Positions 8,624-40,151 of a DNA stretch of 40,394 nt are shown here, in pieces. Location: positions 1 to 40,394 of the forward strand of contig VGXV01000031.1 in the NCBI GenBank assembly GCA_016873165.1, given 5' to 3'. The notes beneath the pieces were generated by a model. The model did no database searches. It saw nothing but the letters and a program-made list of their open reading frames with translations, and had not been told where the DNA came from. Within the stretch, counting starts at the first letter, position 1. Every line of letters begins with the position of its first letter. Made by a program: the position numbers and the translations under genes. Source of the DNA: Planctomycetota bacterium. Lineage in GTDB: Bacteria > Planctomycetota > Brocadiia > Brocadiales > Brocadiaceae.

Positions 8624-10617
8624 TATTTATCCTTAAACTCCATCGCTCCTCCATACAAGGCGCTTGCGCCTCCGGTAAGCTGGCTTTGGGAATCGATAAG
8701 GAAATTGGCAGAGGTGACAACCCTATCCCCTTCTTCCAATCCGTCCAATACCGGATAATAAGCGTCAGTCCTGGGGCCAAGGATAACCTCTTTTCCTATG
8801 TATTGGCCATTCCCTTTGTCTATATAGACAATCTTTCGTATGCCGGTATCTAATACCGCTGTGGCTGGAATGGCAAGAACCTGTGTGATTTTTTCCAGAT
8901 GCATGCCGCACTTCGGACAATCACCCGGTTTGTCAGAAATAACCTCAGAATGCATTGGGCACGTATATACTTCGCGTTTTTTTAACTCAGTTTTTTTATC
9001 AGGAATACCGGATATTTTCAGTTTTTCCCATCTCCCCAGGTGTCTTTTACAGTCAGGACATTCACCAGGTCTATCTGAAGTCATGCATGCCATAGGACAC
9101 ATATACGTGTATTTTTGAACCTCCTCTCCCGAAGGCAAGCGCACTGTTTCTCTCTTCATTACCATAGAGCCGCACATAGCGCATTCCTGCGGAGATATCG
9201 CAGGATTCCATTCTTTTCCGCAAATACACGTTAATTTCTCCCCCGAATCCGAAACAACTTTTTCCCTCTCCACAAGCTTCATGCCACACACAGGGCAATC
9301 CCCCGGCGTATCGGAAACATAACAATTCATGGGACACACATATTCATATTCTCTTTCGACTTGTGTATGAGGAGCAACCGGCGGCAAAACACCCACCACT
9401 CCTTTCCGAATAATCTCTTTACCGTTTTTTTCTTTTCCGGCTTGAGAAATGTTTATAAACTCTTTGTTATCTTCCGGGCAAATCCCCGGCCTGCTTGATT
9501 TTATTTCGGGATGATCAGGGCAGAGATAATCAAGCCCGCTTGTGTATCTCTTATCTTCCTGCCCCATTTCTTCAACAGGAATGCGTAATTTTGCATTTAC
9601 ATACATGGAAGGTTTCAGTTTGAAATCCATATTCGGGATATCACACCGTATTCTTACCGACCGTGTTGCCTCATCTAAATACGGCTCTATAAATGATATT
9701 TTTCCGATAAATACCTCGCCCGGATATGCCGGTGTTGTAATCTCCACTTCCTGTCCGATTTTTATCCAGGACATTTCATATTCATAAATATTCGCCTGCA
9801 TCCAAACGTTTGACAGGTCCGCTATCGTATAAACAGCGTCACCTTCTTTAACATACTGCCCCTCCAGCACCGCTTTATCAATGACTATTCCGCTCATCGG
9901 GGAGTAGATAATCATATGCTGTTGTATAGTTTTATTTTTCCTCAGTTCTTCTATTTGTTTTCCGGTAATACCCCACCACAACAACCGTTTTTCAGTAACA
10001 TTAATGAGCGATCGCGCTCCATCCACCACTTCCTGAAACGGGCTCTGCTGAACCTTCTCATACGTCTCCAATGCAAGCAGGTACTCCCTTTGAGTAGATA
10101 CCAATTCGGGGCTATACATCCAGACCATCGATTCCCCTTTTATCACTTCCGTGCCGGTAAAATCGACAAACAGTTTATCGATCCTGCCGGGAACCCTGGC
10201 GGAAATAACCGCTTTACGGCGTTCATCGTATTCAATCAACCCAACCGTATAAATATCTTTTGACAGCGACCGGTAATCAACCACATCCGTTTTAACCTGT
10301 GCCAGTTTACGGGCACGTTCATTCAATTCCACGGAGGATAATGTTCCTTCCTCCCCTGCACCTGCGCCTTTCTCGTATACAGGAATCAGATCCATGGCAC
10401 AAATAGGACATTTTCCCGGTTTATCCATACGGACAGAAGGATGCATACCGCACGTCCAGTAGAGTATTTTCTTTTCATTTGTTTCATTGGCATTTGCAGA
10501 TGAAAAAAAATATCCGCCTTCATAATTCAGCAGATGCATACCGAAAAGGATAGAAAAGATAACGGGAACTGTTATTCGAGAATATCTTTTATAAAGAAAT
10601 TTTTGTTTAAAAAACAT
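8623..10617 (-). CDS. cusB: CusB-like membrane fusion protein with six metal-binding modules
   Basis: This is the periplasmic adaptor of an HME-RND pump. A frame beginning at a GTG (10665) is open, but the ATG at 10617 has a GAAAGG site 10 nt upstream and opens directly into the membrane anchor, so it is preferred. In numbering from the GTG, a heavy-metal-binding domain (YWTCGMHPSVRMDKPGKCPI) lies at 69-97. The barrel-sandwich and helical hairpin span about 135-365 (YSPMSGIVIDKAVLEGQYVK). Five more YxCP...PGxCPxCGM-type modules lie at about 380-404, 442-466, 479-503, 521-545 and 567-592. The membrane-proximal domain (GLEEGDRVVTSANFLIDSQS) ends the protein. Normal CusB/CzcB proteins have none or one such module, so the insertion is unusual. 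Operon partners are the P-type ATPase upstream and the CusA-like pump downstream. Confidence 0.9.
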   Translation of the reverse strand: MFFKQKFLYKRYSRITVPVIFSILFGMHLLNYEGGYFFSSANANETNEKKILYWTCGMHPSVRMDKPGKCPICAMDLIPVYEKGAGAGEEGTLSSVELNERARKLAQVKTDVVDYRSLSKDIYTVGLIEYDERRKAVISARVPGRIDKLFVDFTGTEVIKGESMVWMYSPELVSTQREYLLALETYEKVQQSPFQEVVDGARSLINVTEKRLLWWGITGKQIEELRKNKTIQQHMIIYSPMSGIVIDKAVLEGQYVKEGDAVYTIADLSNVWMQANIYEYEMSWIKIGQEVEITTPAYPGEVFIGKISFIEPYLDEATRSVRIRCDIPNMDFKLKPSMYVNAKLRIPVEEMGQEDKRYTSGLDYLCPDHPEIKSSRPGICPEDNKEFINISQAGKEKNGKEIIRKGVVGVLPPVAPHTQVEREYEYVCPMNCYVSDTPGDCPVCGMKLVEREKVVSDSGEKLTCICGKEWNPAISPQECAMCGSMVMKRETVRLPSGEEVQKYTYMCPMACMTSDRPGECPDCKRHLGRWEKLKISGIPDKKTELKKREVYTCPMHSEVISDKPGDCPKCGMHLEKITQVLAIPATAVLDTGIRKIVYIDKGNGQYIGKEVILGPRTDAYYPVLDGLEEGDRVVTSANFLIDSQSQLTGGASALYGGAMEFKDK

Positions 10618-26862: not shown

Positions 26863-26950
26863 AGCATAAATTCTTTAGAATATAAGAGCACAATTGTAAA
26901 ATAATAGTATCAAACATTTGAAGATTAAATACTTCATTAGCCTTCTGATG

Positions 26951-27000
26951 CTTCGACTTCGCTCAGCATGACCTCACTGTCATCCTGAGCGGAGTCGAAG
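26951..27000. repeat. inverted repeat CTTCGACTTCGCTCAG type, copy 1
   Basis: The arms 26951-26972 and 26979-27000 (CTGAGCGGAGTCGAAG end) are an imperfect 22-nt inverted repeat with a short loop. This class of repeat is widespread in intergenic regions of environmental bacteria. A rearranged copy lies at 27956-28080. Confidence 0.65.
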
Positions 27001-27197
27001 GGTTACATCTTTTAATGAAATTGTGAAACCGTTCCATATTTCTTAAACTTTATTTTTTTACTATACAATACAATCAAAACACAACCTGAAGCAAGGAATG
27101 ATTGTACCTCTATTTTAATAACTTTCCAAATAATTTAAATGTTTTCTTTCCCCCAGTCATCTGCTATATTTATTTTTATTTCACATCATTATACCCT

Positions 27198-28328: not shown

Positions 28329-28402
28329 TGGGGAATAGTGTAACGGTAGCACAAGTGACTCTGGATCACTTTGTCGGGGTTCGAATCCCTGTTCCCCAGC
28401 CA
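28329..28402 (+). tRNA. tRNA-Gln, anticodon CTG
   Basis: The acceptor stem TGGGGAA (28329-28335) pairs with TTCCCCA (28392-28398), followed by discriminator G and an encoded CCA. The anticodon stem AGTGA/TCACT holds the loop CTCTGGA with anticodon CTG, reading CAG. The T arm has GGTTCGAATCC. The 3' part from 28357 is duplicated at 39237, so this tRNA gene is the integration target of the adjacent element and remains intact. Confidence 0.95.
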
Positions 28403-28407
28403 ATTAT
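28357..28407 (+). repeat. attL: tRNA-side attachment site
   Basis: Identical over 51 bp to 39237-39287. The first mismatches are at 28356 (T versus A) and 28408 (C versus T). The integrase stop codon begins two bases after it. Confidence 0.9.
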
Positions 28408-28408
28408 C

Positions 28409-29470
28409 TCAAGGACTTACGACTTTTGCAACATTGCCCTTTTCCTCAACTGTAGTCAAATTGTAGTCAGAATCTAAAATATCTACTCCTTCTCTGAGAC
28501 TCTCCGGGCAATGGTGTGCATACCTTTGCGTCATGGTAATATCATAATGGCCTAATAACTTTGATATTTTGTACAAATCAATACCTTTTTGTGCTAACCT
28601 CGTGGCAAAAGTATGACGCAAATCATGAAAATGAAAATTTTCTATTTCAGCCCTTTTTAAAGCCTCATTCAATGCTCTTATCAGATTCGGACCATTAATT
28701 TTTGTCCCTGCTTTACTGGCAAATACCAAATCATTCTTAATATTTCTTACCCTTGATTTTTCTTCCAATATACGAAAGGCCGTTTTATTCAATGGAACTG
28801 TCTTAGGGTTTCCGTTTTTCGTCTCTTGTATAATAATCGTCCTGTTAAACAGATTTACCCTATTCCATTCCAATGATAATAATTCGTTCTGACGTAACCC
28901 GGTATGCAAGGCAAAAACAACTATATCACAGAGCCATTGAGGCAAATTGCTCAGGAATCGCCTTTCATCTTCAAGAGTCAACCAACGATCTCGTTTGTTA
29001 TTTTCTTTCTCTTTCGGTACTTTTGAAACGGGATTTTCCTTTATCCATTCCCATTCTTTGACTGCAAGATTAAAGGCTTTTGATAACATGGCAAGCCGAC
29101 GGTTTATTGTTGCAGGCTTTTTCCCCTTCGCGTATTCTGATACTTTATAATCAGAAATTGTCTTTGGGGTAATTTCAGATAATTTACAATTCCCGAAAAA
29201 AGCCATTAAACTTTTCTTAGATGTCTTATAACTCGTTTGCATCCCGAACGACACCTTTGGCGCATATTCTTTCATAAACTTATCGATAAGATCATTAAAT
29301 GCCTTGCTTTCTCCTGCAAATTTCTCAAAATATTTACCTTCAATGATCTCAGTTTTTATCTTGGCCTCTAATGCTTTTGCAAGCTTTTTATCATTTGTCT
29401 CAAGGCTTTTCTGATACCTTTTTCCGTTGTACCTGATACATGCCCACCAGACACCGCCCCGTTTAAACAT
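28409..29470 (-). CDS. int: site-specific tyrosine recombinase (integrase)
   Basis: This 353-residue phage-type integrase has an N-terminal arm-binding segment (MFKRGGVWWACIRYNGKRYQ) and a SAM-like core-binding domain (about 60-165: FNDLIDKFMKEY ... KTISDYKVSEY). The catalytic domain holds the tetrad pieces TGLRQNELLSLEW (Arg), HDLRHTFATRLA (His-x-x-Arg), LLGHYDI (His) and the nucleophile in TQRYAH (Tyr). The ribosome binding site AAAGGAGGG is strong. The gene ends directly at attL, as in tRNA-targeting elements. The last codons contain the left pair of putative arm-type sites, so coding and recombination sites overlap. Confidence 0.94.
   Translation of the reverse strand: MFKRGGVWWACIRYNGKRYQKSLETNDKKLAKALEAKIKTEIIEGKYFEKFAGESKAFNDLIDKFMKEYAPKVSFGMQTSYKTSKKSLMAFFGNCKLSEITPKTISDYKVSEYAKGKKPATINRRLAMLSKAFNLAVKEWEWIKENPVSKVPKEKENNKRDRWLTLEDERRFLSNLPQWLCDIVVFALHTGLRQNELLSLEWNRVNLFNRTIIIQETKNGNPKTVPLNKTAFRILEEKSRVRNIKNDLVFASKAGTKINGPNLIRALNEALKRAEIENFHFHDLRHTFATRLAQKGIDLYKISKLLGHYDITMTQRYAHHCPESLREGVDILDSDYNLTTVEEKGNVAKVVSP
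28448..28469 (+). promoter_or_regulatory. putative integrase arm-type sites, left
   Basis: Two TGTAGTCA motifs (28451-28458 and 28462-28469) spaced 11 bp apart lie in the 3' end of int. The 22-bp segment around them is repeated exactly at 39075-39096 in the same orientation. Position near att and helical-turn spacing suggest integrase N-domain binding sites. Confidence 0.6.
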
Positions 29471-29909: not shown

Positions 29910-30734
29910 TTAAAACGGAATATCATCACCTCCAAACCATTCTTTTACCGACCCCGTATAATCTTCTTTAATCATTTTCTCTAAATCCTCAGCCCTGTAT
30001 TTCTCCAAATCCTTCCGAAATTTTCTGTTTATCTTGGGAAACAATAATTGAAGCCCGCCGATAGCAAATAATCTTTCTTCGTCCTCAAAGTTATAAAACT
30101 GTAATCGTTCAAAATGTTTCACTAAGGTGCTTGGGTCATTTATCAGTTCCTTTAACGTTCCCCGATAGTTTTTTATCCTTAATTCAAACCTGGTGATTTG
30201 TTTTCCTTCTTCCAAAATCTGTTTTTCTTTTTCAGTAATTGCGAATCCCTTTTTTAGACGAGACTTAATCTCCAAGGTCTTATCGTAAATAGTTATCTTC
30301 GGGTCTGAGCCTATGTAAATAGTACTCCCTTTAAAGAAATTATAGCTTCTCCTGTTAAACCCTTTCGCGTATAAGCGAGCAACTACTACATCAATAGGGA
30401 GATTCTCAATATCCGCCTTTATATCAACTCTTGTTACGGAAAAATACTCCGGAGATATAATATTGTTTTGGACGAAAATCGTTTCTAAATAACTATAAAA
30501 TTGTTTATATGAATCAAAATACTTTGGGTTAATATCCACCTTAGAGTATGAAATTCTGCAATTCGTATCTTCTCCAAATTTATGGGGGCACCACATTACC
30601 TCTGCATAATCCATCTTACAGAAATATTTGTAGAGCCTCGACCTTACTTCATCTTCCCTTATCTCCCAATACGCTTTTAAATACTCCATATCAGGAATAT
30701 AAAACGATGTCAGTCCTAATTTATCTATTCCCAT
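29910..30734 (-). CDS. Rep_trans-like replication initiator or MobT-like relaxase
   Basis: This 274-residue protein resembles the replication-initiation-factor family (PF02486; filamentous-phage RstA-like and MobT-like proteins). The recognisable parts are FSVTRVDIKADIENLP near residue 100, RSYNFFKGSTIYIGSDPKIT, the strand IYDKTLEIKSR, and ITRFELRIKNYRGTL. This order of YDK...K and RFELR is characteristic. Such proteins nick DNA at an origin for rolling-circle replication or transfer. I could not place the catalytic Tyr with certainty. AGAAGG lies 5 nt before the ATG. A perfect hairpin at 30817-30846 lies just upstream and could be part of the origin. Confidence 0.68.
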   Translation of the reverse strand: MGIDKLGLTSFYIPDMEYLKAYWEIREDEVRSRLYKYFCKMDYAEVMWCPHKFGEDTNCRISYSKVDINPKYFDSYKQFYSYLETIFVQNNIISPEYFSVTRVDIKADIENLPIDVVVARLYAKGFNRRSYNFFKGSTIYIGSDPKITIYDKTLEIKSRLKKGFAITEKEKQILEEGKQITRFELRIKNYRGTLKELINDPSTLVKHFERLQFYNFEDEERLFAIGGLQLLFPKINRKFRKDLEKYRAEDLEKMIKEDYTGSVKEWFGGDDIPF

Positions 30735-31536: not shown

Positions 31537-32172
31537 TTATACTCCTGCTGTGTCATTTTCTTTTAATTCTTTTTTTAATTCATTGTGTACTTTTTCAAGT
31601 TCTGTCTTTATTTTTATATAAGAATCCTTTGCAAAGGCCAGAGCGGTAAAGTGGTAGCATGCCTTTTCTGCTAATTCTTTTTTCATCTCGATTATATACC
31701 CCTGGTTTTCCTTATCATTCGACTTTATATAGGCAAGTCCTTCAATAAGGGATTGCCCAATTGATTCAATGAATGAACCTGCAGCATATCTTTTGAAATC
31801 TTCGGAAATCGAATCAAAATGCTTAATAGTGTCATTTAAAATGATACCAATCCAACTTAAAAGTATGACAGGTTGATAGTCTGTTTCGGTTTTATTCGCT
31901 GGATTGAGAAATTCCGTGTAAATACATGCAATAAAATTCTCAAATGCTCTTATAATCGGTGATTTTTCTCGCTCTTTCCAGTAAACAGGCCGTTCTTGCT
32001 TCCTTTTACTAATAGTGCTTAATATGAATTCTTTATCTTCCTTAAAGCTATCAAGAAGGTTTTCATCAATAAGTTTTGACAGGGAAATACCCTTTGCCTT
32101 TGCCTTCTTTTCCAGGAACTTTCTGAGTTCTTTACTGATTCTTATTCCTACAAATTCTTCTTTTTTTGCCAT
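31537..32172 (-). CDS. ribbon-helix-helix protein with helical C-terminal domain
   Basis: This 211-residue protein starts with a ribbon-helix-helix pattern: EFVGIRISKELRKFLEKKAKAKGISLSKLIDENL, where the beta strand is VGIRIS and the helices follow, as in Arc/MetJ/CopG regulators. Residues 70-200 form a helical domain of unknown type. It is the first gene of a two-gene operon with the zinc-ribbon protein. It has a good promoter (32215-32243) and a palindrome TTAGTTACTAA (32179-32189) next to the start, suggesting autoregulation. It is probably the element's copy-control or transfer regulator, but that is inference. Confidence 0.65.
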   Translation of the reverse strand: MAKKEEFVGIRISKELRKFLEKKAKAKGISLSKLIDENLLDSFKEDKEFILSTISKRKQERPVYWKEREKSPIIRAFENFIACIYTEFLNPANKTETDYQPVILLSWIGIILNDTIKHFDSISEDFKRYAAGSFIESIGQSLIEGLAYIKSNDKENQGYIIEMKKELAEKACYHFTALAFAKDSYIKIKTELEKVHNELKKELKENDTAGV

Positions 32173-32541: not shown

Positions 32542-32590
32542 CACAGCATTCTTTCATCTTCCACAAAACAGAAGATCAAAGAATGCTGTG
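32542..32590. repeat. long hairpin, 20-bp stem
   Basis: CACAGCATTCTTTCATCTTC (32542-32561) pairs with 32571-32590 with one mismatch, leaving a 9-nt loop. No T-run follows on either strand. The rest of 32244-32724 contains no coding region that I can support. It could be a structured recombination or replication site between the element backbone and the cassette array. Confidence 0.6.
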
Positions 32591-32724
32591 ATTTATTAAA
32601 TTATCTTTATTTCAGAATAATATGGTTTTTCAATGTAATTGCTTTATATTCATTCAGATTTGTTAATAGGAAAAGGTAGGAGAATATTGATATGAGCAAA
32701 TTTTATTTATTATTCACTTTTTAC

Positions 32725-32779
32725 ATCTAACGTAAAGCTCAGCGGCGAAGCGTTAGCGGAGTCCGCGGGAACGTTGGGT
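32725..32779 (-). other. attC-like site 1 (after Abi_C cassette)
   Basis: Read on the minus strand, the site begins with R''-type ACCCAAC (32773-32779) and ends with R'-type GTTAGAT (32725-32731), both fitting the attC consensus RYYYAAC and GTTRRRY. The 55 bp between are an imperfect palindrome rich in GCG/CGC (CGCGG ... CCGCTGAG). The size matches short attC sites of integron cassettes. It lies 50 bp downstream of the Abi_C gene stop. Confidence 0.65.
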
Positions 32780-32828
32780 TAAGTTTTTGAAAGCTGCATG
32801 CAAAATACAAAACCTAATTCCATGTTTT

Positions 32829-33608
32829 CTAAGTACTATATTCACTGCTTAGAAGCTTTACTAAAATTTGCGCCCATTTAATGCTATCAAAAACCAATGG
32901 TCTTAATACTGGCTTTGTTCCATGAACGTCTGACATATTTGCCCTTAAATTTTGCATTACAAATGCTGCTTGATTTAAGGAACCTTCAAAGTTTTTATTA
33001 AAAGGAACAATGCCAGAATCTTTCCAGTTAATGTCTTTTAGTTGATCGCCTATTGCAGTAAACACGCCTAAAGCTTTAAGAGCCTCTGTACATCGTTGCT
33101 GAAACGATGCTTTTGTTGGATCACCAAGATTTTTATTTTGATAGATTTTATTTGTAATACTATCAACTGCCCCACAAGCCGCCGAGATTGCACCGCTTAA
33201 GTCACCATCCCTAAGTCGTTTCGCGACTTTATTAAATCATCTCTGGAAACTTCATCCAATTCTTGAAGATCGATGTTATCAAGTAATTTAATAGGGATTA
33301 CATTACCATCTATAATTTGCCAACCAAGACGAGACAGATATTTTTCTAGCTGTTCTTTAGTTTCACTTTTTCTATTTAGAATTTCTTCCACAACAATATT
33401 CAAAGAACGATATTTTTCTTTCATCATCGAATTTAAAAAATTCTGATTTGATTATACTTAGAAATGGATTCCAGAAATCGCCAGTTTTTGCAATTTGGAT
33501 AACATCGAAACCCGCAAGCTCAACGATTTTTTTAGCATCAAGGAGTCTAAAATGTTCTTCTAGTATTGCAGTAGCAGCACACCAAGCGGAGTCAATATTG
33601 GGATTCAT
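32829..33608 (-). pseudogene. frameshifted Abi_C-type abortive-infection gene
   Basis: Three overlapping frames read in order give one protein of about 260 residues. Frame 1 runs from the ATG at 33608 (MNPNIDSAWCAATAILEEHF to EFFKFDDE). Frame 2 continues EKYRSLNIVVEEILNRKSET to DEVSRDDLIK, with the shift near 33425-33430. Frame 3 continues VAKRLRDGDLSGAISAACGA and on to NLRANMSDVHGTKPVLRPLV, with the shift near 33220. The final part, with ACGAVDSITNKIY and the SDVHG motif, is the Abi_C (PF14355) domain found in abortive-infection proteins. Two single-base indels break the gene, so it is inactive unless the assembly is wrong. It sits between two attC-like sites as a cassette. Confidence 0.75.
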
Positions 33609-33624
33609 AGCGCCTCATTTCAGC

Positions 33625-33713
33625 ACCTAAAGTTCAAGCTGAGTGGCGTGGCAAAAGATCTTGCCCATAAGGCCACTGACGACAACCATGTCCACTCAAG
33701 CATTTTGTTGGGC
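33625..33713 (-). other. attC-like site 2 (after PIN cassette)
   Basis: On the minus strand it begins with GCCCAAC (33707-33713, perfect RYYYAAC) and ends with TTTAGGT (33625-33631), one mismatch from GTTRRRY. Inner arms CCACTCAAGC (33692-33701) and GCTGAGTGG (33638-33646) pair with one extrahelical base, a feature of attC sites. The next gene starts 16 bp beyond it, as in cassettes. Confidence 0.65.
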
Positions 33714-33727
33714 ATCGACAATATCTA

Positions 33728-35188
33728 TTAATAAATATTCATTTTTTTTGCTATCTCAGCCTTTGGGTCAGCTGCCAAATAATTAAGGTTTAAGGGTAGA
33801 TTATATTCGACTGGACTTGGTATGTTTTTTGCCGACACAGTACATTTGATGGCACATTTACTAATTTGATTATCTGAAGGTGGGATCAATATATTCAATT
33901 CAAATGTTTCATTATGAGTCTGATGCCTGAACTCCTCACATTCAAATTCCCAACGTCTAGAAGGCTTATTGGGCTTGTTGTTTTTCCAATAAAATAAATT
34001 CCTATCCCTATCATTTCTTAAAGAAAGATTAGGGATGTTTTGATATAGGGGATCAGATAACGACAAGTGGCTTTTTTGTATATCTTCAACAAGACCTAAA
34101 AAAGAGTTTCTCTGCTTTTCCCATCTACCTTCTGGTGGTTGGGGAGGAGATGGAATCTTATGAGTATTTTTTTCTTTTTGGTCTTTTTCATCAAATTTAT
34201 AAAAAAATATGCCACCTAAAGCTTCAAATGTGATTATTAAATTTTCAGCAGGGACGTTACCGATATTACTAATTACAAATAATAATTTTACAAACCTTGA
34301 TTCGTTTTCCAGTAATTCAGGATATTCTGAAATGAATTCCGAAACTTTATCAATCCAATTTGGGTAATCTACTTTTAAATAAGTGTTAATTTCCTCTTTA
34401 GAAGGTGGCACATAAGTTTGTGTGTAGCCAAGTGCCATTGACATAGCTCGTAATCCAGAAAACACATCATCTGGGGGGCTTGATTCATTAGAAAAATCTG
34501 TTTTAGGAGGGTATCGTTCTTTTATTTTATCAACAAATTCTTGAACTTCTTGGTCAGTCAACTTGTTATATATTAATATGTTTGTTTCATATTTATCTAT
34601 TTCATTACCTATTGTGTCTTCAACAATAATGCTTATAACAGGATAGCAACTTGTAAGATCGTTTATTTGTTCTGTTAGTTTATTGATTATTTTGTCTTTT
34701 TGGTCTGGTTCTGGTGGCAATAACCATTCGTCAGGAACAACTATACTTTGTATGTTACATCGTTTGGCTGTTAGCAGAGGGTTTGTGTCATGGGTAATGA
34801 TTGATATACTTTGTTTATGATATATTGATTTATAGTTAAGTATTTCAGCTATTATCCTGTCGTCAGGATGTGACATATCTAAAAAATCAGGCAGATGGCA
34901 TTCAAGTTTTAACGCAGGTGTAAATGAAATTTCCACTAGAGGATTTGATTCTTTAATAATAATTTTTGTATGTTCTGAGAGAATTATTTCTCTTAATAGA
35001 GCATTTGCTTTTTTAGCTCTTTTAGACCTTCTGCTATTACCATCATGTTTTTGTCGATCAATTTCTTCCTGTACTGCCTTTGGAATAAGAAGAAGTATAT
35101 GCTGATCGTCAGATAGTTCATGCCAAGGCAATTGCTTTAACTCCTTGCATTGAATAAAAATATTTGTATCAAGAAAAATTGTTTTCAT
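33728..35188 (-). CDS. PIN-domain protein with large C-terminal extension
   Basis: The N-terminal 160 residues form a PIN nuclease domain: FLDTNIFI with Asp7, acidic Glu41/Glu42 in KAVQEEIDRQK, Asp109/Asp110 in MSHPDDRIIAE, and Asp134 in ITHDTNPLLTAKRC. These are the metal-binding acidic residues of PIN ribonucleases. The remaining 320 residues are an unrecognised region with beta-rich sections (FVISNIGNVPAENLIITFEA resembles an immunoglobulin-like strand arrangement) and probable linkers rich in Pro and charge. It differs from classic VapC toxins (130 residues) and no VapB partner is adjacent. It lies between attC-like sites 2 and 3 and so appears to be a gene cassette. RNA cleavage in defence or toxin function is inferred. 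Confidence 0.78.
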   Translation of the reverse strand: MKTIFLDTNIFIQCKELKQLPWHELSDDQHILLLIPKAVQEEIDRQKHDGNSRRSKRAKKANALLREIILSEHTKIIIKESNPLVEISFTPALKLECHLPDFLDMSHPDDRIIAEILNYKSIYHKQSISIITHDTNPLLTAKRCNIQSIVVPDEWLLPPEPDQKDKIINKLTEQINDLTSCYPVISIIVEDTIGNEIDKYETNILIYNKLTDQEVQEFVDKIKERYPPKTDFSNESSPPDDVFSGLRAMSMALGYTQTYVPPSKEEINTYLKVDYPNWIDKVSEFISEYPELLENESRFVKLLFVISNIGNVPAENLIITFEALGGIFFYKFDEKDQKEKNTHKIPSPPQPPEGRWEKQRNSFLGLVEDIQKSHLSLSDPLYQNIPNLSLRNDRDRNLFYWKNNKPNKPSRRWEFECEEFRHQTHNETFELNILIPPSDNQISKCAIKCTVSAKNIPSPVEYNLPLNLNYLAADPKAEIAKKMNIY

Positions 35189-35212
35189 CTGAATGATTTT
35201 CTAATTATTTTT

Positions 35213-35347
35213 GCCCAACAATGTTATTAACAAATTTTGTTTTATTCTACAAACTATACAGCACAAGTCAAAGAATAATTGACACATATATTGACATATA
35301 AAATCCTCACCAATATAATTCTAAGTTGTTAATATTACAAATTGAGT
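35213..35347 (-). other. attC-like site 3 (after TPR cassette)
   Basis: On the minus strand it starts ACTCAAT (35341-35347, one mismatch from RYYYAAC) and ends with GTTGGGC (35213-35219, perfect GTTRRRY). Inner arms TATTAACAA and TTGTTAATA pair over about 9 bp with a 100-nt AT-rich centre. At 135 bp it is at the upper end of attC lengths. The next gene starts 24 bp after it. It is weaker than sites 1 and 2. Confidence 0.5.
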
Positions 35348-35416
35348 AATATCAAGAAATAGGATAAGTATTTCCTTCATTATCAGCTTAACTCGTAAAA
35401 TTGTGTCATGCCAAGT

Positions 35417-37246
35417 TTATTTTCCATCACCTAATTTTTCTCGTACTTCATAGATAAATTTCCTAACAAATTTATCATTAACAAAAGTTTTATTCATAGG
35501 TTTTAAAATACTTCTTTTTAAATTTTTATCCCAGTTGCTATTATGTGCAATTAATTTTAAATTTAACTTAGTTGTGGTATCATTTATTCTTTCAACTAAG
35601 ATGTAATATTTATAATATTTTCGATTCATAGACCATCTGCAAGTATCTGTAATAATAATCCCAGATTCCTCGTCTGATGTAATTATTTTTTCCTTTTTTT
35701 TGTTCAAAACATAATTCACTGCATCCCATACATCTTCGTACTTATAGTTAAATACACTGTAATGACTATCAAAGAGGTTTGCATCCTTTTCTCCTGATAA
35801 TAATTCTTCAAAGGTTATTGCTGCAATTTCAATTTTTGACATATCAGAAATTTCTTTATTAGTAATGTCGGAACCTACTTGACTTTCATAAATCTTGGCA
35901 TAGCGGTCCGCTTCTTCATACAATTCTTGAGAACGATAGAATTCCTCAAGAACTTTATATACATCATAAAATTCAGGGTCAACTTCGATCGATTTATTAA
36001 GATATAGTTCCGCGTTTTTAACAGCACCTTTTTCTTTGTATGCAAGCCCTATCAAATAAAAATAACTTGACGTTTCTTTGGTTTTCTCCAAGGCACTCTG
36101 CCAAATAGCAATCGCATCGTCCAATTTCCCTACTTTGGTGTATGCAATACCAAGGTTATAGTATATTTTTATATTTTTATCACCTTTTTCTAATGCTTTT
36201 AACCATTCAGCAATAGCTTTCTCATACTGCCCATTTTTCGCATAAAAAGTCCCCTGTTTGTATTCAGATGGAAATTCTTCGTCCTTATTTATTTTCTGAG
36301 AAGTTTGTTCTGTCTTGACAAAATTTGTTTCTTTAGAAGATTTATTTTGCTCACAAGAAACAGATGTCCAACCTTGGTTCATTTGCAACCAATTTGCCCA
36401 ACCACCTGTTTGGTTTCCTAACACAAGATTTACACAAAAATTATTTTCGGTATCTAAAGAAGAAAAAATATACTCTTTGTCCACAAAAAATTTATAAACT
36501 ATGCGTCTTTGTGCATATTCAAGAAAATCATCACCTAGACTTCCAATTACCAAAGCATAGGCTCCTTTTGACAATGTACTTTTTGGAGAAAGGTAAACTA
36601 TTTCTTGATTGTTTGCAACGGGTTGAATTCCGAGACTAATGACTCTCGATCGTTCGCCACTACAAAATACAGCATCCCATTTTCCTATCCGTGATACTTT
36701 TTTCTCTGGTTTTCTAAAATCACCTCCACTATAACTTATTTTATTGTTGATGTATTTCATGGTAACTAAATGAATATTATTCATTAAAGTTTTTACATTC
36801 TTATCAAATAAAATAAATTTTACCTCTCCATTTAATTCTTCTGGTTCTCCTTCGTATGAACTATTTACTTCAATAAACTTTTTGTCTTTTAATAAATAAA
36901 AACCATAATATTGAGGATAAGCAGTTTGATTAATTGATGAATCTGTTTTTTGTATTTGTAAAGGATTAGTATTGTTTCGATCTATCATTATTTCGATCAA
37001 TTTGTTACTTACACCGTTTTTTTTTAATTCTACCAAATCATTTGGACTTACATTAAATTGAGTAGAATTCGATTCTATTACTTTTATTATTGCAACTTCA
37101 CTTAAACCTGCTTTTATAAGCTCAATTATTGTTTCATTAGTGATAACTGACTGAGCATCTTTGCTCTCAACATCTTTTGCTATTAAAAGTTGATTAACAA
37201 AAATACACAAAGATATAAATACCACAAACGTAATTAATCGTACCAT
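35417..37246 (-). CDS. secreted TPR-repeat protein
   Basis: This 609-residue protein has an N-terminal signal peptide (LITFVVFISLCIFVNQLLIA). A helical hairpin motif follows at about residues 37-95 (ITNETIIELIKAGLSEVAII ... LKKNGVSNKLIEIMI), a module common in secreted proteins. At about 335-460 tetratricopeptide repeats occur, for example KQGTFYAKNGQYEKAIAEWL, NLGIAYTKVGKLDDAIAIWQ and GLAYKEKGAVKNAELYLNKS. The C-terminal 130 residues (YEDVWDAVNYVLNKKKEKII) resemble envelope lipoprotein domains. AAGGAAAC precedes the ATG. Three AATACTAG direct repeats lie upstream at 37303-37328. It is the first gene of the putative cassette array but has no attC-like site upstream. Confidence 0.72.
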   Translation of the reverse strand: MVRLITFVVFISLCIFVNQLLIAKDVESKDAQSVITNETIIELIKAGLSEVAIIKVIESNSTQFNVSPNDLVELKKNGVSNKLIEIMIDRNNTNPLQIQKTDSSINQTAYPQYYGFYLLKDKKFIEVNSSYEGEPEELNGEVKFILFDKNVKTLMNNIHLVTMKYINNKISYSGGDFRKPEKKVSRIGKWDAVFCSGERSRVISLGIQPVANNQEIVYLSPKSTLSKGAYALVIGSLGDDFLEYAQRRIVYKFFVDKEYIFSSLDTENNFCVNLVLGNQTGGWANWLQMNQGWTSVSCEQNKSSKETNFVKTEQTSQKINKDEEFPSEYKQGTFYAKNGQYEKAIAEWLKALEKGDKNIKIYYNLGIAYTKVGKLDDAIAIWQSALEKTKETSSYFYLIGLAYKEKGAVKNAELYLNKSIEVDPEFYDVYKVLEEFYRSQELYEEADRYAKIYESQVGSDITNKEISDMSKIEIAAITFEELLSGEKDANLFDSHYSVFNYKYEDVWDAVNYVLNKKKEKIITSDEESGIIITDTCRWSMNRKYYKYYILVERINDTTTKLNLKLIAHNSNWDKNLKRSILKPMNKTFVNDKFVRKFIYEVREKLGDGK

Positions 37247-38563: not shown

Positions 38564-38848
38564 TTATTTCCATATTTCTTTTGCTTCCCTGATATCTTTC
38601 TCCGTTACTTTACTCCCCCTTGTTATTCCCTGAAGTACAACACGATTTTCCTTCTCTTCTTTCTTCGTATCACTGAAATAGTCTTTTAATGCTTCTTCGG
38701 TAACAAGCCATTTGGTTCCCATTTTTCTTGCTTTAAGCTTTCCTTGACGAATATACGTTCTCAAAGTAAAGGTGGTAATTCCTAAAATTTCTGATAGCTC
38801 TTTTAATGAGTAAAGTTTTAGCTCTCTTAACATTTTGGAATATATCAC
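38564..38848 (-). CDS. helix-turn-helix DNA-binding protein (excisionase/antitoxin type)
   Basis: This 94-residue protein has a MerR/excisionase-like DNA-binding domain (YSLKELSEILGITTFTLRTY, IRQGKLKARKMGTKWLVTEEALKDYF) and a C-terminal tail (SKVTEKDIREAKEIWK) of the kind seen in antitoxins that wrap a partner. It is the first gene of a probable three-gene operon near the right end of the element. It could regulate the downstream module or assist recombination, since the arm-type repeats lie just upstream (38988-39096). Confidence 0.7.
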   Translation of the reverse strand: MIYSKMLRELKLYSLKELSEILGITTFTLRTYIRQGKLKARKMGTKWLVTEEALKDYFSDTKKEEKENRVVLQGITRGSKVTEKDIREAKEIWK

Positions 38849-39236: not shown

Positions 39237-39287
39237 GACTCTGGATCACTTTGTCGGGGTTCGAATCCCTGTTCCCCAGCCAATTAT
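39237..39287 (+). repeat. attR: right attachment site
   Basis: A 51-bp exact copy of 28357-28407, comprising the 3' 46 bp of tRNA-Gln plus ATTAT-type flank. It lacks the 5' half of the tRNA, so it is not a functional tRNA gene. Confidence 0.9.
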
Positions 39288-39390: not shown

Positions 39391-39606
39391 ATGGACATTA
39401 AAGAACGCAAAAACCACAGGATGTATATTCAGGTGCTTCGTCAAATGTCACCGGAAAAAAGATTGCTCAAGGCCTTTGAATTATCTCACTTTAGCAAGCA
39501 ACTTTTTATTCATGGCCTGCGGAAAAGATTCCCTAACCTTTCAGATAAAGATTTTCAGAAAGAACTTTTGAAACGTCTCGATAAATGTCACAACAGGAAC
39601 TATTAA
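39391..39606 (+). CDS. small hypothetical protein coupled to a nucleotidyltransferase
   Basis: This 71-residue protein (MDIKERKNHRMYIQVLRQMS to KRLDKCHNRNY) has a helical, basic sequence with the pattern MSPEKRLLKAFELSHFSKQL and FPNLSDKDFQKELLKRL. Small proteins of this pattern lie before nucleotidyltransferase genes in many bacteria. It overlaps the next gene by 22 bp, so the two are translationally coupled. I infer the small partner of a toxin-antitoxin-like nucleotidyltransferase pair. It lies outside the integrative element. Confidence 0.6.
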   Translation: MDIKERKNHRMYIQVLRQMSPEKRLLKAFELSHFSKQLFIHGLRKRFPNLSDKDFQKELLKRLDKCHNRNY

Positions 39607-40151
39607 AAAAGGTTATTCAGGCGCTCGAAAATGCCGGAATTGAACACATGATTACCGGCTCCGTAGCTTCAAGCCTGCAGGGAGAACCGAGGTCTACCCA
39701 CGATATAGACATCATAGTTGCAATCCGGGAAACAGACGCAAAGAACCTGATACAGGCATTCCCACCATCCGACTTTTATTTAGACGAAGACAGTATTATT
39801 AATGCCATTAACGCACAAAAAATGTTCAATTTGATTGACGTAAGAGAAGGAGATAAAGTTGATTTCTGGATATTAACCGATGAACCTTTTGATCAGTCAC
39901 GTTTTTCCCGAAAATATGAAGAAAATGTCTTTGGTATAAAGATGCAGGTATCCAGTCCGGAAGATACCATCCTGGCAAAACTAAGGTGGGCAAAACTTTC
40001 TGGTGGCAGTGAAAAACAATTTACTGACGCCTTACGTGTTTACGAAGTACAATTTAAAAAACTGGATATGCAGTATCTGTCGTTTTGGGTTAAAAAATTA
40101 AATATTGAATCCTTATGGAATCGGTTGAAAAATAGCGCAGAAACTGAATAA
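39585..40151 (+). CDS. nucleotidyltransferase-fold protein (AbiEii/MNT-like)
   Basis: This 188-residue protein has the nucleotidyltransferase signature GSVASSLQGEPRSTHDIDII, where the GS pair and DID acidic motif bind the metal-nucleotide. A third acidic residue follows in DKVDFWIL. Later come SSPEDTILAKLRWAKLSGGS and a C-terminal helical region. The same pattern occurs in type IV-like antitoxin/toxin systems and in stand-alone DUF-type NTases. Substrate is unknown. The start at 39585 overlaps the upstream gene. Confidence 0.75.
   Translation: MSQQELLKKVIQALENAGIEHMITGSVASSLQGEPRSTHDIDIIVAIRETDAKNLIQAFPPSDFYLDEDSIINAINAQKMFNLIDVREGDKVDFWILTDEPFDQSRFSRKYEENVFGIKMQVSSPEDTILAKLRWAKLSGGSEKQFTDALRVYEVQFKKLDMQYLSFWVKKLNIESLWNRLKNSAETE

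Follow-up and report, generated by a model that had tools for sequence, protein, structure and literature searches.

How did an array of integron gene cassettes come to lie, with no integron integrase beside it, inside an island integrated at a tRNA gene? The question is raised by a 40,394-nucleotide stretch of a Brocadiaceae genome (Planctomycetota; contig VGXV01000031.1), hereafter the window, in which a preliminary description had noticed attC-like palindromes behind three genes. Our analysis leads to the answer that the window very probably holds an integron that lost its integrase gene (intI) and is now carried by a tyrosine-integrase island of 10,880 bp at tRNA-Gln.

A recombination site with about fifty copies

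The array is headed by an element with the following features:

35217–35372, minus strand: attI with putative divergent promoters; 156 bp; crossover G^TT at 35219/35218; R box to 35213
35244–35271, minus strand: putative Pc, TTGACT-16-TAGAAT, pointing to the cassettes
35291–35319, plus strand: putative intI promoter, TTGACA-17-TATAAT (12/12); intI itself gone

When positions 32600–35450 were searched against relatives, this element was the most strongly conserved piece, above the genes and the attC sites: 19 of 59 relatives matched the query, nearly all of them at 35217–35372, and a second copy in the host genome (G000:C13) is 88% identical to that of the window. A sequence model (R1) made from 28 copies, the window copy included, gave 54 matches in 20 of the 33 genomes of the host family, with four in the host genome besides the window's; the initial matches in relatives are independent of R1. 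In a sample of 199 genomes from the phylum, every match to the element was in a member of the host family, and plasmids, phages and viral contigs gave none. Within this one family there are about fifty such docking sites, the window's attI among them, and most lack an integrase.

Both edges of the element are informative. At its 3' edge, the copies are fully alike (pairwise identity 1.00) at the final two bases of GTT; identity declines across RRRY and, five bases on, has dropped to about 0.27. This is the sharp boundary that recombination between G and TT produces where the first cassette differs from copy to copy. The 5' edge coincides in relatives with the start codon of an integron integrase gene read in the divergent direction, as at locus L088, where an intact intI of 459 amino acids (TIGR02249, 364 bits) stands beside the attI; this integrase (L088:6231-7607) is extended at its N terminus and contains two SAM-like (PF13495) stretches. 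The gene or a piece of it is retained at 18 of 52 copies: at L073 it is nearly complete but split, at 16 copies only pieces are left, ranging from the initial 26 codons to the final hundred, and at most two of the 52 have a near-complete intI. At 24 of the 52 copies, attC sites are found on the same strand no more than 3.5 kb downstream; at one copy they are upstream, and at none on the opposite strand. In 10 of 39 copies the cassette start is the exact complement (9 nt) of an R'' farther on, where swapped starts would give 0.5. Judged from these sequence comparisons, the 156-bp element is an attI, a docking site of the integron-integrase kind. In one relative, a 2.2-kb stretch contains three partial attI copies, with a different gene after each (L091:6043-8202; G006:C1:3487041-3489201).

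The attI also carries putative divergent promoters, one directed towards intI and one towards the cassettes. The Pc-like TTGACT-16-TAGAAT has counterparts in relatives, and promoter-like sites overall occur at chance frequency in the region.

The cassettes and the missing integrase

Read along the minus strand, the order is TPR gene, a gap of 44 bp, attI, PIN gene, attC, broken gene, attC:

35417–37246, minus strand: TPR-repeat protein gene; sits where intI would; outside the array, no cassette
33728–35188, minus strand: PIN-domain protein gene of cassette 1 (PF13638, 2.2e-13); cassette about 33631–35218
33625–33713, minus strand: attC of cassette 1; 22.2 bits, E 0.0017 (model R2); R'' TGCCCAAC complements cassette start GTTGGGCA
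32829–33608, minus strand: broken gene of cassette 2; three frames, with ORFs 32829–33065, 33197–33427 and 33372–33608
32725–32784, minus strand: attC of cassette 2; R' GTTAGAT; 28.4 bits, E 4e-5 (model R2)

R2 is an attC covariance model trained on 23 sites, namely five of class 1 integrons, one of a cyanobacterial plasmid and otherwise sites of relatives, with the window excluded; it was scored unfiltered on both strands of the whole 40-kb window. Plain scans for the R''/R' consensus and a home-made stem score were too weak alone for finding attC sites. The preliminary description had counted three attC-like palindromes and proposed a covariance model as the check: two sites stood clear (32725–32784 at 28.4 bits and 33625–33713 at 22.2 bits), the third-best place in the window reaching 11.7 bits, but the supposed third attC near 35213 had no match to R2 and is part of the attI, its palindrome arising from inverted boxes within that element. 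For the two sites confirmed, the reported RYYYAAC and GTTRRRY-type ends and the position behind same-strand genes hold, as does the cassette-like placing of the start codon at two junctions (those of the PIN gene and the broken gene).

The PIN cassette start, GTTGGGCA, and the start of its attC, TGCCCAAC, form a perfect 8-nt match. Most attC sites of relatives outscore both sites of the window, and the folding check that had also been proposed went against them, as the single-strand fold energy of neither attC is better than that of shuffled sequence. The attC of cassette 2 reads TTTAGGT where GTTRRRY is expected, and the start of cassette 2 mismatches the R'' of its own attC, which makes a deletion or fusion likely there. 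Given the low scores, the folds and this mismatch, the array, its attC sites included, looks partly decayed. The host genome has about 29 attC matches across some 20 contigs; a further decayed array in it (L014:654-5439, on G000:C8) has four attC sites, and a fragment of intI lies at G000:C8:8374-8526.

In the other genomes searched, the PIN gene has one full-length relative (Sideroxyarcus, 35%), at whose locus no attC was found. In its C-terminal part the broken gene shares 53% identity with a hypothetical protein from a plasmid of Pseudomonas putida; the gene had been taken for an Abi_C gene, an identity without support from Pfam, where neither its pieces in three frames nor the intact plasmid homologue has a match. 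Nor can the TPR gene be kept as a cassette with its own attC: R2 found none behind it, and the gene lies outside the array, its stop codon about 45 bp from the far edge of the attI. Ahead of it no recombination site, attC or attI, was found.

The reported absence of an integron integrase was upheld. At the array an intI search gave no match, the sole match on the contig being the island's own integrase (28511–28687), and in the host assembly we found broken integron integrase genes and no intact one, in a draft of 191 contigs that could miss one. Of the features of a complete integron, the locus has an attI and attC-ended cassettes in one orientation, and it lacks the adjacent intI. By our own covariance model it also fits the definition of a CALIN (two or more attC sites, no integron integrase), the name given to it previously; the name is right as to the two attC sites without integrase, but it understates the locus, where the attI and the putative divergent promoters are still present.

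The carrier island at tRNA-Gln

The array lies between two copies of a 51-bp direct repeat, within these features:

28329–28402, plus strand: tRNA-Gln (ctg), island attachment gene (ARAGORN and Rfam)
28357–28407: left 51-bp direct repeat, attachment site; exact repeat of 39237–39287
28409–29470, minus strand: island tyrosine integrase (PF00589, 1.9e-38)
29910–30734, minus strand: Rep_trans-like replication initiator, weak (PF02486, E 3e-4, below cut-off)
31537–32172, minus strand: small protein with RHH/NikA- or RelB-antitoxin-like N terminus, weak (sub-threshold matches)
38564–38848, minus strand: excisionase-like island protein (TIGR01764, 34.6 bits against a cut-off of 28.8)
39237–39287: right 51-bp direct repeat, attachment site; exact repeat of 28357–28407

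The repeat is the 3' part of tRNA-Gln, and a sister genome (G019) has the empty site, contiguous across the tRNA and 93% identical in the right flank over 961 bp. Because of the repeats, the integrase and excisionase, and this empty site, the 10,880-bp island can be recognized as an insertion and the integrase-less integron as its cargo, in agreement with the tRNA-integrated tyrosine-integrase element first described. Homologues of the island integrase adjoin tRNA-Pro in relatives. The further suggestion of a defence-like island is a weak reading: PADLOC gave no defence match for the five proteins tested (PIN, TPR, Rep-like, RHH-like and the homologue of the broken gene). An Rfam gathering search returned nothing but the tRNA. 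A search for hydrazine synthase, made on the supposition that the host might be an anammox planctomycete, gave no match. Three other features were observed: a short dispersed repeat at 26936–27005, of which the host genome has over 20 similar copies; a 20-bp inverted repeat with a 9-nt loop at 32542–32590, between the array and the RHH-like gene; and a small gene and a nucleotidyltransferase-like gene at 39391–40151, immediately outside the right end of the island.

Probable loss of the integrase and possible use in trans

Since a docking site and putative divergent integron promoters remain, we infer that the array goes back to a genuine integron whose intI was lost. In the mechanism we propose, IntI, encoded by the lost cis gene or acting in trans, would have inserted the cassettes through attI x attC recombination at G^TT; a deletion or rearrangement would then have removed intI and brought the TPR gene next to its former start codon. 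Pc may now drive the PIN gene. With no intact IntI in the host genome, the array would be frozen and would travel only with the island, and it would still be usable if IntI were supplied.

Three other accounts of the locus can be weighed against this one. CALINs can arise by off-target insertion of cassettes (PMC8618304), and there is no intI nearby, so that the locus might never have been an integron; yet cassette 1 is immediately preceded by a complete attI with its putative Pc and intI promoter, and homology between copies stops at G^TT, which leaves this origin very improbable. We consider it just as improbable that the TPR gene and the attI together form one cassette in which attI replaces attC, as known from class 1 and 2 integrons. 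The attI does follow the TPR stop codon by about 45 bp in the same direction, but no recombination site was found ahead of the gene, and the element retains the putative intI promoter and ends at the intI start of relatives. Least credible of all is an unrelated dispersed repeat (a MITE, for example) that ends near cassettes by chance: the element is multicopy within genomes, as such a repeat would be, but it is joined to intI in relatives, its attC neighbours are strand-biased, and it ends exactly at the recombination core.

Sites of this kind may still be served by an integrase encoded elsewhere. In the sister genome, contig G019:C60 has two tandem attI copies that share 416 bp at 98% identity (the end of proA, named by eye from sequence, the first 26 intI codons, and the attI) and diverge at the exact crossover into different cassettes (L084:5647-6059 and 9498-9912), while intact intI genes are present at other loci of G019. 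Both copies are without most of intI, and at least one change of cassette is therefore most simply explained by an integrase acting in trans. Several orthologous attI loci whose intI is lost or damaged likewise have different cassettes in different species. Outside the window, the tandem pair suggests that an integrase from another locus can use sites without intI.

It is conceivable, if rather doubtful, that this amounts to an active platform, in which attI sites without intI are retained as docking sites that gain and lose cassettes through IntI encoded elsewhere in the cell, the array of the window having been loaded in this way before it hitchhiked on the island. Speaking for it are the G019:C60 pair, with the same truncated intI, different cassettes and intact intI elsewhere in the genome; the cassettes that differ between species at orthologous attI loci lacking a complete intI; and the near-complete intI at no more than two of 52 copies. 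On the other side, the genome of the window shows broken intI only, a single clean tandem pair gives no rate, and loss of intI after loading fits the window equally well; in Xanthomonas, repeated loss of intI alone has produced many static arrays (PMC12444791).

Several known systems resemble the locus in part. CALINs, as defined in IntegronFinder 2.0 (at least two attC, no nearby intI; PMC9024848), have been attributed to off-target insertion, intI loss or rearrangement (PMC8618304); unlike these, the window keeps attI and both putative promoters, Pc and that of intI, so that an origin by intI loss is visible. Because attI sites other than those of class 1 integrons have been poorly described and go undetected by IntegronFinder (PMC9024848), arrays like this one are filed as CALINs and their origin is left open. 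Chromosomal integrons of Xanthomonas with inactivated intI show the same persistence of arrays after intI decay; there, however, the intI-bearing integrons are at one locus, ilvD, with CALINs elsewhere (PMC12444791), whereas the host family has attI platforms at several loci per genome, one of them on a tRNA island. Pieces of attI within arrays are known in clinical integrons, and the Delta-attI-type cassettes of class 1 and 2 integrons share with the window an attI away from intI in a cassette context, but in these it is mostly a short attI end that replaces attC behind an ORF (PMC12901181), and here a full 156-bp attI heads the array. Finally, integrons are carried as cargo of integrative mobilizable elements, for example Salmonella genomic island 1 (PMC2297512); by contrast, the island of the window brings no intI, and its attI is specific to the family. 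A literature search found no report of a comparable dispersed attI family, which is not proof of absence.

The extent, boundary and putative promoters of this attI type are defined by about fifty copies, which let loss of intI be told from off-target insertion and make a direct test of use in trans possible. The window itself shows an integron remnant carried by an ordinary tRNA island. For the family as a whole, we tentatively raise the possibility that its integrons turned from a cis to a distributed arrangement, in which many attI-promoter platforms without intI, spread genome-wide and on islands, would be served in trans by a few intI genes.
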